64,000 nt of DNA from Desulfovibrio sp. JY. GTDB taxonomy: Bacteria > Desulfobacterota > Desulfovibrionia > Desulfovibrionales > Desulfovibrionaceae. The position numbers and the translations under genes are program-made. Positions 36,808 through 62,134 of this stretch are shown in pieces; positions within the stretch are counted from its first letter, which is position 1; every line of letters begins with the position of its first letter. The DNA lies in NCBI GenBank assembly GCA_021730285.1, contig CP082962.1, positions 682,001 through 746,000 of the forward strand, in the 5' to 3' direction. Below the pieces are notes generated by a model. The model was not told where the DNA came from. It saw only the letters and a program-made list of their open reading frames with translations, and did not search any database.

Positions 36808-37021
36808 TGATCACAGGTATCGTTTCAATATCTCCGCAGAATGGGCACTTCCCCACCCCGATCAACCCCATCAGATAGCCCGATACAGAGAACACCGTGC
36901 CGCACCCGACGCACTGGCGATACGTTTTGTCCGAGACGAAACAGATGGTCCCGTCCTCGGCCACGTTGGCGTAGACGCCGAGGCCGGCCAGACGCATTGC
37001 TGTCGTCGTGCTGTCGCTCAT
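36776..37021 (-). CDS. Small zinc-ribbon protein
   Basis: 81 residues from ATG 37021, which overlaps the terminase TGA (ATGA). It has the zinc pairs CVGCGTVF and CPFCGD. It sits directly downstream of the large terminase gene and reads into the coiled-coil gene. Function unknown. Confidence 0.65.
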   Translation of the reverse strand: MSDSTTTAMRLAGLGVYANVAEDGTICFVSDKTYRQCVGCGTVFSVSGYLMGLIGVGKCPFCGDIETIPVINATNRDKYDS

Positions 37022-38391
37022 GATTTCCGCCCCCAATTTGCCCCGGCCGTCAGGCCGTCGCCTGCCGGAGCACGCAGCATGCAGACGTGGCACGCCTCGT
37101 CGTAGATGTGATCCTCGCCCGTGGTGTCGATGTCTTCGACGTTCAGGGGATCGATTTGCAGCAAAGGTATGGTGCGGATGAACTGCTCGCAGGACTCGTA
37201 GACCAGGAGCATGGGCGCGCTATCGTCTTTGGGCAGCATCAACCGTTCCCGGAAACGGCGGATTTTGGTCACGCGCGAAGGGTCGCCCGGGGTCAGGTCA
37301 ACCCCCTCCTTGGCGAACTCCTCGGCCGTGCTCGGGCCTTGGCCGCCGCCGCGGTAATCGGGCTTCTTGGAAAAGCAGTCTGGCCCGGCCAAGCGGACAA
37401 TGGGCCGCCCCTTCAGGCCCCATCGCTCCTCCCGCTGCAGGATGCCCTTGGCAATCTCGGAATCAACGAGGCGCATGCCCTGGTTGGGCGTGCCATTCCA
37501 GCCGTACCACTCCCCGAACCGGTAAAGCCGGCCGTCGGCATCCTCCCACCACCAGCCCAGGGCGAACGGGGCGCCATAGCCCCAGTCGAACGTCATGTAG
37601 AGGGGCGCATGCTCGGGGATGGGCATGGGTTTAACGACGTGCCGGGCCCGGCTGAACTCGAAGGCCTGGCCAATGAAGATGTCCCAATTCCCGTCTTTGT
37701 AGGCCGTGCGGTACGGCTCCGGGAGGGCATCCAGGCGCGCCAGATAGCCCGGGTCACGCTGCATCAGGATCGGGTTGTCCTGGAGCAGCCCGGGGATGTA
37801 GGTGCGCAGCATGCCGCCCTCTTCCTGGGCGGCCATTTTGAGCTGCATCGGCTTGACGAAATCCACCCATCGCCGCTTTGCGAAGGCATGCCCTACGCCA
37901 CCAGGGTTCGAGGCGCAGACGATGCCGGGGATCTTGTGGCGGTACCGCTCGGGGATGACCAGGGCGCAGCGCAGACGGCCGCGCAGGTAGTCGTACTGGA
38001 ACTCCGTGAACGTGGTCAGCTCATCGATGAGTAGCAGGTGGATTTCCGCCCCCTGGAACGCGAAAACGTCCTGCTCATACTGGCAGGAGGCAAAGAAAAG
38101 CTTGGAGCCGTTGACGAAGTCCCACCGCTTGGCCTGGCTCTTGAACGTGCCGACGCCCATCGGAAAATGGGCCTGGGACGGAAGGATGTGGTTTTTCTCG
38201 AGCTCGGGGAACGTGCGGCGGAACAGGTAGACGTTCAGACCCGGGATGCGCATGCACCAGTGTAGGCCCTCCATACGCAGAGCGTGGCTTTTGCCCGGGC
38301 CGGCGGCCCCGCCGTACAGGATCTCATTGGCTGGGCTGGCGTGGAGCGCAGCTTGCTTCGGCAAAGGGCGGTATTCGGCCTGGACGTTCAT
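37018..38391 (-). CDS. Terminase large subunit
   Basis: 457 residues. The ATPase has Walker A GGAAGPGKS at 27-35 and Walker B LLLIDEL near 120. The RNaseH-fold nuclease begins with the Asp of YMTFDWGYGAPFALG and ends with the acidic EDHIYDEACH. It packages DNA and cuts it. It overlaps the small subunit gene by four bases. Confidence 0.93.
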   Translation of the reverse strand: MNVQAEYRPLPKQAALHASPANEILYGGAAGPGKSHALRMEGLHWCMRIPGLNVYLFRRTFPELEKNHILPSQAHFPMGVGTFKSQAKRWDFVNGSKLFFASCQYEQDVFAFQGAEIHLLLIDELTTFTEFQYDYLRGRLRCALVIPERYRHKIPGIVCASNPGGVGHAFAKRRWVDFVKPMQLKMAAQEEGGMLRTYIPGLLQDNPILMQRDPGYLARLDALPEPYRTAYKDGNWDIFIGQAFEFSRARHVVKPMPIPEHAPLYMTFDWGYGAPFALGWWWEDADGRLYRFGEWYGWNGTPNQGMRLVDSEIAKGILQREERWGLKGRPIVRLAGPDCFSKKPDYRGGGQGPSTAEEFAKEGVDLTPGDPSRVTKIRRFRERLMLPKDDSAPMLLVYESCEQFIRTIPLLQIDPLNVEDIDTTGEDHIYDEACHVCMLRAPAGDGLTAGANWGRKS

Positions 38392-56728: not shown

Positions 56729-58162
56729 ATGGCCTCAAACCCGCAGAACGTGCCGGCGAAGCAGCCGGCCCAGGCACAAACGGTCATGGCCCTCTTGGAG
56801 AGCCACGATGTGAAGTCCAAGCTTGCGATGGCGATTCCCAAGCATCTCACCGTGGACCGCCTGCTTCGCGTGGCCATGTCCGCCATTCGTATCAACCCGA
56901 CGCTGCTCAAATGCACCCCGCAGAGCCTCGTGGCATGTGTCATGGGATGCGCTCAACTCGGACTGGAGCCCGAGCCGTTCCTCGGTCAGGCTTATATGGT
57001 CCCGTACAAGCGAAACAAAAAGATCAATGGTCAATGGGAAAGCTGGATGGAGGCGCAGCTCATCCCCGGCTATCGCGGCTATATCGCTCTGGCCCGGCGC
57101 TCTGGAGAAGTCCAGACGGTCATGCCCCAGGCGGTTTATACCAACGACCATTTCCGCCTGCGATACGGTGTCGAAGCCACTGTCGAGCATGAGCCGGCCG
57201 AAGGAGATCGCGGGGACTTCAGAGGGGCCTACGTTGTCTTTAAGTACAAAGATGGGGCCTATTCCTTCGACTACATGAGCAGGGATGACATCGAGAAGAT
57301 TCGCATCCGTTCCAAGACCTACGACAAGGAATCGGGCAAGAATTCTGGCCCCTGGGGAACCGACTACGTGGAAATGGCCAAGAAAACGGTCATCCGCCGT
57401 CATATCAAGCTTGTCCCCCTTGCCGTGGAAAACAACGCCATGGCCATGGCTGCAGAAGCCGAGAACTTGGCCATGTCCGGCAAGAGCCAAATAAACCTCT
57501 TCGCCACCAGCGAGGACGAAATAGAGCCCGAGGAAGATGGTGACGACGCCAACGACGTCTACGATAACCCGCCGCAAGCCAGCATGGAGTTCGACCGTCT
57601 GGCTCACGAGCATGGCGCAGACATGAACGACCTGGCTCGCTTCACCGTGGCAACGGCCAGCATGAACCAATGCCCGGTGGACGACGTGAAATCCCAGGCC
57701 ATCGCGAACTTTGATGGGTTCTGGTCTGCCTTTGAGAAGTGGCAGGCCAAGCAATCGGGAGCGAACGGCAACGGCAACGGAAAATCTCGCAATGTTCCCA
57801 CCCGGGCCGAGATGGACCAGCGGCGAGCGGACACCAGAGCCGAACTGGAAGGCATGGGCGTCTTCGATCCCGTGGTCAAAACCATGGGGGACAAGGGGCA
57901 GGGTCCGCCCACGGCATGGAACACCGCCCAGTGCAACAAGGCTCTGGAGATCGGGCGGAAAATGGTGGCCGCCGTCGGCGTTGTTCCCGATCCCGAGGCC
58001 GAGGACGTGCACACCGCATCGGAGCAGCCGGCCGACGCACCCCAGGGACTCCCTGAAACCGTTGAGTGTCCGAAAACCGGCAACGTGGTCCGAACGGCCG
58101 TCGAATGTGCTGCCTGCGACCAGAACGGCCTGTGCCCGTCCACGGACGGGAAGAACGCCTGA
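56729..58162 (+). CDS. recT: RecT-family single-strand annealing protein
   Basis: 477 residues. The N-terminal 260 fit RecT (SLVACVMGCAQLGLEPEPFLGQAYMVPY; LIPGYRGYIALARRSGEVQTV; SDYMSRDDIEKIRIRSK pattern). The C-terminal 200 residues form an unusual extension with acidic and Cys-rich parts (VECPKTGNV; CAACDQNGLCPS). It anneals complementary single strands in phage recombination. Confidence 0.92.
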   Translation: MASNPQNVPAKQPAQAQTVMALLESHDVKSKLAMAIPKHLTVDRLLRVAMSAIRINPTLLKCTPQSLVACVMGCAQLGLEPEPFLGQAYMVPYKRNKKINGQWESWMEAQLIPGYRGYIALARRSGEVQTVMPQAVYTNDHFRLRYGVEATVEHEPAEGDRGDFRGAYVVFKYKDGAYSFDYMSRDDIEKIRIRSKTYDKESGKNSGPWGTDYVEMAKKTVIRRHIKLVPLAVENNAMAMAAEAENLAMSGKSQINLFATSEDEIEPEEDGDDANDVYDNPPQASMEFDRLAHEHGADMNDLARFTVATASMNQCPVDDVKSQAIANFDGFWSAFEKWQAKQSGANGNGNGKSRNVPTRAEMDQRRADTRAELEGMGVFDPVVKTMGDKGQGPPTAWNTAQCNKALEIGRKMVAAVGVVPDPEAEDVHTASEQPADAPQGLPETVECPKTGNVVRTAVECAACDQNGLCPSTDGKNA

Positions 58163-59733: not shown

Positions 59734-59845
59734 CCGGCCCTGTTCAGGAGGAACCGGGCCGGGGATGAGGCGCGGCGGGGTGAGCCACGGAAGGTTAGGT
59801 ATGCCCTGGCGTTGTAAGGTGGGGCCCGGTGGGCCAAGGCAAGGG
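59734..59845 (+). ncRNA. Hairpin module 0 with 5-nt-periodic G linker (noncoding)
   Basis: A stem of seven pairs (59734-59740 with 59756-59762), one mismatch and four more pairs (GTTC with GAAC) closes the loop AGGAG. It is preceded by CCTCCGA and followed by GGATGAGG, so the outer CCTC and GAGG can also pair. From 59764 to 59844, G occupies 15 of 17 positions spaced five bases apart. This matches the four-module array 1.2 kb downstream. The region ends 24 bp before the RAMP-like gene and may be its leader. Confidence 0.6.
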
Positions 59846-59868: not shown

Positions 59869-60489
59869 ATGGAACGCATCACTTTTCAGATTGAAGGCAT
59901 CGCTCCTCTGCTTATGCACGACAACACGCGGCTGGCGAATCCGCTTGACCCGTTGTGTAAGGAGCTGAAAGCGGTCACGGGGAAGCGGAAGAAAACCGAC
60001 GCCGACTTGGCTGAAATAGCCAAGATAGAGTTCCGCGGGGGAATTTACTTCGACGAGGTGGACGGGCCCTATATCCCCTCGCGTTGCATTCAGGCCATGC
60101 TTCGGGACGCTGGGACCATCAACAAGCAGGGGCGTGCTGTGAACAGGGGCGTCGTAGTCGTCGAGGATCGTTGCCCGCTTCAGTACGAAGGCCCCCGCAC
60201 CATCGACGACCTCTTCGACTCGGGCGAGTTCACCGACATGCGCCCGGTCAAGGTCCAGACGTCCACCACAGTGCGCTGTCGCCCCATATTCCGGTCCTGG
60301 GGGATCACCTTCACCATCGCCTTCCAGCCCGACGTCATCAACCGTGAAGAAATCGTGGACATCGTGGAACGCGCCGGGATGATGACCGGCCTGGGAGACT
60401 ACCGGCCGGGGTCCCCGAAGGGAGGGCAGTTCGGGCGCTTCGAGGTGGTGGCCATCGACGGAAAGAAGGTGCGCAAGGAGGCCGCGTAA
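59869..60489 (+). CDS. Phage protein with RAMP/Cas7-like features
   Basis: 206 residues. The N-terminal strand (ERITFQIEGIAPLLMHDN), the GPYIPSRCIQAMLRDAG segment (compare YIPGSSLKG..LR of Csm3/Cmr4-type RAMPs) and a Gly-rich loop before the last strand (GLGDYRPGSPKGGQFGRF) together resemble the RAMP fold of CRISPR backbone proteins. The resemblance is by eye. It may bind RNA. On both sides lies noncoding DNA with hairpins and 5-base-periodic G. AAGGA lies before the ATG. No CRISPR array or other Cas gene is near. Confidence 0.5.
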   Translation: MERITFQIEGIAPLLMHDNTRLANPLDPLCKELKAVTGKRKKTDADLAEIAKIEFRGGIYFDEVDGPYIPSRCIQAMLRDAGTINKQGRAVNRGVVVVEDRCPLQYEGPRTIDDLFDSGEFTDMRPVKVQTSTTVRCRPIFRSWGITFTIAFQPDVINREEIVDIVERAGMMTGLGDYRPGSPKGGQFGRFEVVAIDGKKVRKEAA

Positions 60490-60492
60490 CCT

Positions 60493-60981
60493 ATGCCGGC
60501 CGCACAGTCCCGCCAGCCTCCCGAAGGAATGCAATACGACAAGGGGTGGCAAAACGCCCTGGTGGCATTCGATCATGCCGAATTCTACCCGGGCGACATC
60601 ATCCCCATGTCATGGTTTTATGAGCATTTCCGAGTCCGTGATTTTCCCTCCGACGCATCCTGCACAGTCGGCGAATACCAGAAAGAACGACTCATCTTCA
60701 TGGGTCAAATGGAACGGTTCCAAAAGGCCCTGGCCGAAGACTACGACCTGATTTTGCAGAACGTGCGAGGTCAGGGCTACCGAATCATCCCTCCGGCCGA
60801 GCAAACCGGATGGACCATGGACCAGGGCCAAAAGGAGATGACCAAGGCCCTGAACAAGATCCACATGCGCCTGACGCATATCCGACTCGGGGAACTGACC
60901 GACGAACAGCGGCGACAGAACGCCGACGCCCAAGCCAAACTGGCGGCGTTGAGGTCAGGGGCCAGGAAGGCTCTGATGTGA
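60493..60981 (+). CDS. Hypothetical partner of the RAMP-like protein
   Basis: 162 residues. A domain with a winged-helix-like core (YQKERLIFMGQMERFQKALA; NVRGQGYRIIPPAEQT) and a helical tail (TDEQRRQNADAQAKLAALRS). It starts three bases after the RAMP-like gene and ends nine bases before the periodic array. The pair is probably functionally joined with the RNA. Not recognised. Confidence 0.58.
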   Translation: MPAAQSRQPPEGMQYDKGWQNALVAFDHAEFYPGDIIPMSWFYEHFRVRDFPSDASCTVGEYQKERLIFMGQMERFQKALAEDYDLILQNVRGQGYRIIPPAEQTGWTMDQGQKEMTKALNKIHMRLTHIRLGELTDEQRRQNADAQAKLAALRSGARKALM

Positions 60982-60990
60982 ATTTTGTGT

Positions 60991-61460
60991 GGCAAGGGTG
61001 GCAAGGTTTGGTAGGGCGATGCGGAGTCGGGCAATGTAAGGCTTGGCAAGGCTTGTCTCAAAGGTCAGGCGACTTCGGTCGTCGGGCCGATCGATGTTTG
61101 CCGCGGAGAGGTGGGGCCAGGGTAGGCCGGGCTCGGCGTTGCATGGCAAGGCTTGCCTTCGAGGTGCAGCGGCGAAAGCCGTTGCACCGATCAAGGTGGG
61201 GTATTCCTTGGCTAGGCCGGCTGTGGCGATGTGAAGCATGGCTTGCCTTCAAGGGCCAGGAAGCGATTCTTGGCCCGATCAAGGCGGGCCCAGGTCTGGT
61301 TTGGAATGGTGCGGTGATGCGGGGCTATGTGCGGCACGGTGCGGCTTGCCTTGCAGGGGCGTCAACTCCGGTTGGCGTCCCGAACATGGTAAGCCACGGT
61401 GAGATTTGGTCCGGCGGGATGTGGCCGGGTTATGTCGGGCGAGGTAGGCATTTACAACAA
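60991..61460 (+). ncRNA. Four-hairpin noncoding array with five-base-periodic linkers
   Basis: Hairpins: 61063-61088 (loop TTCG), 61163-61188 (GAAA), 61253-61276 (GCGA), 61356-61381 (TCCG). Stems have 10-11 pairs of unrelated sequence, with base pairing preserved by compensating changes and a few G-T pairs. Each is preceded by a GGCTTGCCTTCAA-like flank and followed by GATCAAGG or a close form. In the linkers G recurs every five bases: 13 of 13 (60991-61051), 11 of 12 (61096-61151), 8 of 10, 12 of 13 and 12 of 13. No open frame fits. It ends at a terminator. Probably an RNA made with the upstream two genes. Confidence 0.72.
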
Positions 61461-61473
61461 ATAATAGATGGAA

Positions 61474-61498
61474 GGCCGCCGTACGGCGGTCTTTTTAT
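61474..61498 (+). terminator. Intrinsic terminator closing the array transcript
   Basis: GGCCGCCG/CGGCGGTC arms meet at a GTAC centre, followed by TTTTTATTT. It separates the array from the next gene. Confidence 0.72.
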
Positions 61499-61510
61499 TT
61501 GGAGGTCGGC

Positions 61511-61738
61511 ATGGCCACAATCAAGCAGTGCGACCACTGCCAGTCTACTAAGGATGTTGAAACGCTGTTCCTCGAAACGGGTCGGCGTCAAGACGCCGCC
61601 GGGGCCATGGAAAGCACGGGTGAGACGATTGACCTATGCCTCAAGTGCCAATCCGCCCTCCTCAAGGAGCTTTGCAAGAACAGGCCGACGTTTTCACAAG
61701 CGGCGGCGGAAATCGTCCAAGGATGGTTTGAAGCATGA
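61511..61738 (+). CDS. Zinc-ribbon protein
   Basis: 75 residues from ATG 61511 (GGAGG upstream). CDHCQSTKDVETLF and CLKCQSALL give two CxxC pairs. Function unknown. Overlaps the next gene as ATGA. Confidence 0.66.
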   Translation: MATIKQCDHCQSTKDVETLFLETGRRQDAAGAMESTGETIDLCLKCQSALLKELCKNRPTFSQAAAEIVQGWFEA

Positions 61739-61896
61739 AAGACCCCACCAAGAAGCCCAAGCAAAAAGATTTCGCCCGGATCAACAGCGTCAAGATGGGC
61801 GGCGGTCCCCACGGCGGGAGATGCAGAATGCACATCTGCAAGCATTGCGGGACGGTAAACGGGTTTCGCGTGTGTCCGTTCTGCGGGAAGAGGTGA
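61735..61896 (+). CDS. 53-residue zinc-ribbon protein
   Basis: A short frame beginning at the ATGA overlap (61735). CKHCGTVNGFRVCPFCGKR is a compact zinc ribbon preceded by a basic Gly-rich segment. Probably a small nucleic-acid-binding protein. Confidence 0.66.
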   Translation: MKDPTKKPKQKDFARINSVKMGGGPHGGRCRMHICKHCGTVNGFRVCPFCGKR

Positions 61897-61900
61897 CACC

Positions 61901-62134
61901 ATGACCCGTCGCCATTGCCCTATCAGCGGCCGTCTTTTTGTTCCCTACCATCTCAAAGACAAAACCTGTGGCCGGCCTGACTGCCAGCGCCAGCGCGCCC
62001 TAGAAACCCGCCTGGAGCGGTTGGCCATCCTGGCGGATGCGGCCAAGGATGCCGAGGAGCGCCAGCAACGCCGGCTACGGACGCGCCGATTGTACGAGCG
62101 CGGCGTGCGCCGGGAAGCGAGGTTGTCAGTATGA
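61901..62134 (+). CDS. Small basic protein with Cys pair
   Basis: 77 residues (MTRRHCPISGRLFVPYHLKD), with C..S..F..H..C...C pattern of a possible zinc finger and a basic helical end (RRLRTRRLYERGVRREAR). ATGA overlap with the next gene. Confidence 0.58.
   Translation: MTRRHCPISGRLFVPYHLKDKTCGRPDCQRQRALETRLERLAILADAAKDAEERQQRRLRTRRLYERGVRREARLSV

Follow-up and report, generated by a model that had tools for sequence, protein, structure and literature searches.

A YNNGG guide array with covarying hairpin tails beside a Vipr homologue: a very probable VIPR system in a Desulfovibrionaceae prophage

VIPR (Viral Interference Programmable Repeat) was described in a preprint of April 2026 that reports 667 such systems, mostly located on phages or prophages (PMC13142463). 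A system comprises a RAMP protein, vrRNAs of 9–16 YNNGG units, a structured 3' tail and accessory genes; GGY is conserved in the vrRNA repeats while NN is hypervariable (PMC13142463). The NN pairs recognise DNA, with one target base skipped at a wobble position, and the targets lie in foreign mobile elements (PMC13142463). The RNAs are ~100 nt long and co-purify with Vipr, and both DNA binding and repression have been reported (PMC13142463). Among the papers listed by literature searches, PMC13142463 was the one on VIPR, and those listed for pentanucleotide repeats held nothing of relevance.

The locus described here lies in a 64,000-nucleotide stretch (the window) taken from a 4.69-Mb bacterial chromosome. 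It is almost certainly an array of VIPR vrRNAs, carried by a Desulfovibrionaceae prophage, in a system that most resembles the type II one of Escherichia phage SUSP1 (KT454805), and it would act by the mechanism proposed below. This reading is based on protein homology, predicted fold, unit structure, tail covariation, linkage of array and protein, and target matches in homologues. The window shares with SUSP1 the Vipr homology, a homologous second gene and YNNGG units, and its layout is that reported for SUSP1, with a guide before vipr and the array after the genes (PMC13142463). The tails differ, as those in the window are interrupted hairpins with UNCG- or GNRA-type loops, modelled with nested pairs only, whereas a pseudoknot has been reported in the tails of SUSP1 (PMC13142463). 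The decoded guides of the window correspond to motifs of primases, ERCC4-type nucleases and integrases; for the SUSP1 clade, most targets were reported in a satellite phage (PMC13142463). Placement in type II is suggested by resemblance to SUSP1, including the second gene there, rather than by a tree.

VIPR-like loci of the Pseudomonas phages LESphi2 (OQ594955) and Medea1 (MW862109) encode Vipr proteins 43% and 40% identical to that of the window, together with a phrog_5926-type second gene and hairpins beside pentamer tracts. Their tail sequence differs, and the LESphi2 array lies upstream of vipr, unlike that of the window; the P. fulva clade of the preprint is probably near as well. Class 1 CRISPR-Cas, with type III backbone proteins such as Csm3, resembles the window in its RAMP fold, predicted here, and in a guide with a variable and a constant structured part, but the window differs in its five-base repeats, its non-contiguous code, the lack of CRISPR-like direct repeats and a phage-borne two-gene locus. 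The direct repeats of class 1 systems are ~24–40 nt long and alternate with spacers. A repeat search of 60700-61700 returned only degenerate families of 2-3 copies and no direct repeats of the CRISPR type. TIGR-Tas is reportedly built on a different protein fold (Nop-like) and a different array grammar. Like the window, TIGR-Tas is reported to have a phage-associated tandem guide array and an RNA-guided DNA-targeting protein (PMC12045711).

The gene order at the locus is G0, vipr, accessory gene, four guides each followed by a tail (G1 to G4), G5 and a terminator. The features are as follows.

59771..59844, + strand: guide tract G0, 14 five-base units and one four-base unit, before vipr, without a hairpin tail
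59869..60489, + strand: vipr gene (phrog_4652), RAMP-type protein of 206 aa
60493..60981, + strand: accessory gene (phrog_5926), homologous to the second gene in the SUSP1 locus
61002..61051, + strand: guide tract G1, 10 YNNGG units
61052..61096, + strand: hairpin tail 1, loop TTCG, weak outer stem
61097..61151, + strand: guide tract G2 of 11 units, matching best the motif A(D/E)G(Q)YRSxM(K/R) of ERCC4-domain nucleases
61152..61196, + strand: hairpin tail 2, loop GAAA
61197..61241, + strand: guide tract G3, 9 units
61242..61284, + strand: hairpin tail 3, loop GCGA
61285..61344, + strand: guide tract G4 of 12 units, matching best LLIAEGYATA, the TOPRIM motif in primase-type proteins of phages
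61345..61395, + strand: hairpin tail 4, loop TCCG, outer stem GGCTTGCC/GGTAAGCC
61390..61449, + strand: guide tract G5, 12 units, without a hairpin tail, best match to the tyrosine-integrase motif KTxFPGVRYRE
61472..61499, + strand: intrinsic terminator ending the array

Genes for RecT (56729-58162), an exonuclease, a repressor, a terminase and a serine integrase surround the locus, which is thus carried by a prophage as is usual for VIPR. The serine integrase, a large serine recombinase (phrog_95; 62822-64501, equal to L285:6823-8502), lies directly downstream of the VIPR region and is probably the prophage's own integrase, near its right end. The gene for the terminase large subunit is found at 37018-38391 on the - strand, opposite to the array; judged from this gene, the region around it and leftwards looks like a full prophage. 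No Rfam family was found in the window, and no DNA similarity was found between the window and phage records.

Tail-anchored parsing delimited six guides with tracts of 9–15 units each, within the range given for vrRNAs and with GGY as the conserved part. Over 68 five-base units, a count that leaves out the single four-base unit, the first base is a pyrimidine in 65, G stands at position 4 in 57 and at position 5 in 57, at least one of both G is present in 67 and GG is complete in 47. None of 2000 dinucleotide shuffles matched the fit of any of the six tracts to YNNGG (for G0, its inner 11 units). At lags of 5, 10 and 15, the recurrence of G exceeds that in 500 dinucleotide shuffles by 6.5, 5.1 and 4.8 sd. 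This bears out the claim of an earlier note on this DNA that G recurs at every fifth base, with YNNGG as the sharper pattern, while period-5 power across the entire stretch is unexceptional because the phase slips. The earlier note was also correct on a terminator following the array and on four hairpins, present at 61063, 61163, 61253 and 61356 with loops TTCG, GAAA, GCGA and TCCG; the recurring flanks it described are found in full around tails 2 and 3 and in part around tails 1 and 4. It overlooked the upstream tract at 59771-59844 and did not recognise the last tract as a guide. A structured constant 3' tail, as in VIPR, follows four of the six guides. G0 and G5 have no hairpin tail and may use a short AT-rich 3' end instead; that of G0 continues to AAGG, the presumed ribosome-binding site, right before the start codon of vipr. 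One locus with two kinds of guide 3' end, the hairpin tail and, in the first and last guide, the short AT-rich end, would be a lesser new point.

The array stretch folds better than all of 100 shuffles (z -6.7). Taken alone, tails 2, 3 and 4 each fold better than all of 200 shuffles, while 20 of 200 shuffles fold as well as tail 1, for which the best predicted fold differs from the hairpin. A model built from nine tails, four from the window and five from a related viral contig (L009), is a two-helix hairpin with an internal loop in which nested pairs only were modelled. In the alignment 95.1% of cells are paired, and 10 of the 16 pairs show two-sided changes. Covariation amounts to 0.63, compared with at most 0.163 for slid versions of the alignment, and was reached in 0 of 500 shuffles. 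The hairpin tail would serve as the 3' handle of the guides. A covariance model search of 73 sources, namely the window and 72 chosen loci out of 286, recovered the nine source tails and one weak match (L277, E 0.018), and the tail therefore appears specific to the clade.

The product of phrog_4652 matches the PDB entry 36pp_D, 'SUSP1 Vipr protein', with a phmmer E of 2.2e-30, and the two Vipr proteins are 33% identical. An AlphaFold model of the window's Vipr, built from 16 sequences, has a pLDDT of 91.2. All of the 50 best PDB matches listed by Foldseek for this model are type III CRISPR complexes or Csm3 crystals; the best E is 5e-6 and the TM is about 0.5, and among these 50 three matched chains are named Csm3. 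Sequence and model together identify the window's Vipr as a predicted RAMP homologue, as expected of a VIPR member. The accessory protein is homologous to the product of the second gene in SUSP1, with 22% of residues identical across 93 aa (E 2e-7); the latter gene is taken, by its position, to be the vap1 of the preprint. No Pfam family was found for Vipr or the accessory protein up to an E of 1, and both frames are open in the window. Among 50,697 phage records, 162 carry a homologue of this Vipr. At phylum level 6 of 297 genomes have one and at family level 8 of 288; in the genus, the window's own genome is the only one.

Linkage of array and protein was evaluated in 120 viral contig stretches picked solely by the pattern GGCNWGGCNWGGCNWGGCNWGGC (a GGCNN array, of which at least 120 exist). 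Among the matches listed, a Vipr homologue (E 1e-3 or better) lies no more than 1.3 kb from the array in 76 of the 120, and on the strand of the array in all 76. No Vipr homologue was found in 133 control loci, which are mostly stretches of bacterial genomes, not random viral contigs. The profile used found no Vipr in the remaining 44 array contigs, which may hold more distant types, be cut contigs or be unrelated. Several of the pattern-picked loci, including L047, L048, L105 and L129, hold long GGCNN arrays in which the phase is reset by a four-base unit, GGCA, in L105 about every 9-10 units; no obvious hairpins accompany them. They are possibly the staggered arrays of the preprint.

Guides were read as NNx codons under the one-base-skip rule (PMC13142463). 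G4 decodes to G(H/Q)L(F/L)(I/M)A(D/E)GYATA and G5 to (K/N)T(D/E)(F/L)PGVRYR(D/E)(S/R). Before the first target search we took the former to be the TOPRIM motif of phage primases and the latter to be a tyrosine-integrase motif. The target families (Toprim, ERCC4 and tyrosine integrase) were confirmed by Pfam. Controls were shuffled unit orders, 30 or 40 per guide. The comparison of targets is conditional, since loci for G4, G5 and one G2 set were fetched by gene family from the decoded peptide or an earlier match.

An exact ten-unit search of viral contigs with G4 gave a single match, in frame in a phage primase-type Toprim protein. A scan of 134 loci (1.42 Mb) with G4 reached 23/24, in frame, in Toprim-DUF927 proteins of Desulfovibrionaceae, compared with at most 18/24 at skips of 0, 2 and 3 and at most 18-20 with shuffled unit order (19 for 30 orders in the 134 loci, 20 in a further set). 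Genes with an ERCC4 domain from the same genus matched G2 at 19/22 and 18/22, against no more than 16-18 for shuffles across the sets of loci; given these scores, a second candidate at 17/22 (motif GDYRSVISL, L141) was set aside. G5 scored 20/24 in tyrosine integrases, among loci chosen for that gene (shuffles at most 18-19). In one register G0 fits YMLANGxGK of the primases matched by G4, at a score not above shuffles. Its exact search of viral contigs gave two matches from one sequence; as they lie antisense within an open frame that is unrelated, they were rejected as chance. Searching viral contigs for nine or ten exact units gave no match for G5, G2 or G3, and no targets for G1 and G3 were found in the loci scanned. 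The collections searched held no perfect target for any guide, and all matches are to homologues. At the level of sequence, G4 clearly appears to follow the one-skip target code, G2 and G5 appear to do so moderately, and the target assignment of G0 is tentative.

Within the window, the best scores of G4 and G5 are 16/24 each, which is noise. The recombinase that probably serves the prophage as its own integrase is of the serine type, so that a guide aimed at tyrosine integrases would miss it, and homologues elsewhere in the host reach only 16/22 (ERCC4-type) and 17/24 (integrase). The Toprim-DUF927 gene that holds the best G4 match (876 aa) is 99-100% identical between a Bilophila MAG contig and Desulfovibrio piger PG-251 (L222/L223); such identity across differently named species reflects either recent spread of a mobile element or contamination of the MAG.

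The related viral contig L009 carries the same genes, with a Vipr 92% identical to that of the window, and can be considered a sister phage. It has five hairpin modules to the window's four; modules are conserved and linkers are not. Over 27 unit pairs aligned by their tails, window and L009 are identical at Y in 16, at the two N positions in 4 and 3, and at the two G positions in 18 and 21. The scaffold is kept between the sister phages while the NN letters agree at chance level. Three further guide tracts with short AT-rich ends lie upstream of vipr at L009:4700-4990. A peptide presumably like a primase-polymerase motif is decoded from one of them, u3, for which no target match was found in the loci scanned. 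A genome of the family (L276, G562) contains a close VIPR relative that has two guides upstream and one in-frame TGA within its vipr match. Eight L009 guides and one of the two L276 guides were scanned against 8 shuffles each, with seven loci set aside (array-bearing L009, L276, L275 and L010, and overlapping L001, L002 and L004). L276_2 fits an integrase-like C-terminus at 18/22 compared with at most 17 in the shuffles, and L9_u1 reached 24/32 compared with at most 23. L9_1, whose best match we likened to an AlpA-like motif, scored 17/22 with shuffles up to 18 and is not significant, and the other six guides scanned gave nothing above shuffles.

Three other explanations of the array were considered. 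That it is protein-coding or frameshifting sequence is next to impossible. A frame of 364 aa at 60810-61904 does run open through the array, contrary to the earlier note, which had stated that no open frame fits. The L009 array is likewise open in one frame, and the two translations align (43% over 109 residues, blastp E 5e-12). This likeness arises because conserved tail DNA shares its register in two of the four corresponding tails. The window's four tails nevertheless fall in frames 0, 1, 1 and 2 and the five of L009 in 2, 2, 2, 1 and 2, so that translation would turn a single conserved RNA element into differing peptides; moreover the stem pairs covary as RNA, and five-base units cannot keep a codon frame. 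Somewhat less remote, although very improbable, is a cis-acting structured RNA or DNA element, bound by RecT or serving antitermination or replication, in which the G of period five is only for protein binding and NN is meaningless. Chance-level agreement of the NN letters between sister phages would fit such an element, as would the neighbouring RecT gene, the single point in favour of the RecT alternative raised in the earlier note. Against it, a Vipr homologue adjoins the array in 76 of the 120 array-picked contigs (among the matches listed), and the NN letters of G4 spell the primase motif at 23/24 with one skipped base and at 18 or less otherwise. The earlier note's other suggestion, a structured RNA read five bases at a time by the protein bound to it, comes close to the VIPR RNAs of the preprint (PMC13142463), with the partner encoded two genes upstream, but the target code in NN had gone unseen. 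Homologous arrays, whose absence elsewhere that note would have held against its reading, were found in L009 and in viral contigs.

It is also quite unlikely that the locus is a decayed VIPR system with guides out of use. Incomplete GG (intact in 47 of 68 units), the missing tails, the weak outer stem of tail 1 and the TGA in the vipr match of L276 point that way. On the other hand, vipr and the accessory gene are open in the window, the tails covary, Y is kept in 65 of 68 units, and the L009 tracts are similarly tolerant of imperfect units.

Under the VIPR reading, transcription of the array would yield about six guide RNAs, and four of these would bear the covarying hairpin tail. Subunits of Vipr would coat the YNNGG tract, grip the GGY letters and expose each NN pair, and successive NN pairs would base-pair with double-stranded DNA, each time skipping one target base at the wobble position. 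The bound complex, together with the accessory protein, would then repress the target gene, here replication or integration genes of a rival. In this manner the guides and a CRISPR-like protein probably silence rival phages. Because decoding the guides gives conserved coding motifs that belong to other mobile elements, the system probably serves superinfection exclusion or conflict between phages.

How the guides arise may be considered in the light of the sister phages. Tails and proteins are kept while NN letters agree at chance, one phage has an extra module and the guides match conserved codons of rival genes; on these grounds a dedicated acquisition process of an as yet undescribed kind is proposed as the writer of the guides, a proposal we regard as rather doubtful. 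Target-derived dinucleotides may be copied into the YNNGG scaffold, or guide modules may be swapped between phages, without integration of the Cas1 type.

Systems of this kind have been known since April 2026, and the locus provides independent sequence evidence for VIPR, since the array was noticed blind, the published rule turns G4 (and, less strongly, G2 and G5) into a motif from a gene of rival phages, and Vipr accompanies the array in 76 of 120 viral contigs (among the matches listed). As far as checked against the preprint, the locus, the decoded guides and their likely targets are new, as are the clade-specific covarying tail, the divergence of guides between sister phages and the blind contig linkage test. 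Decoded natural guides from a Desulfovibrionaceae prophage are hereby added to the system, and the sister phage makes the question of guide acquisition or replacement directly testable.
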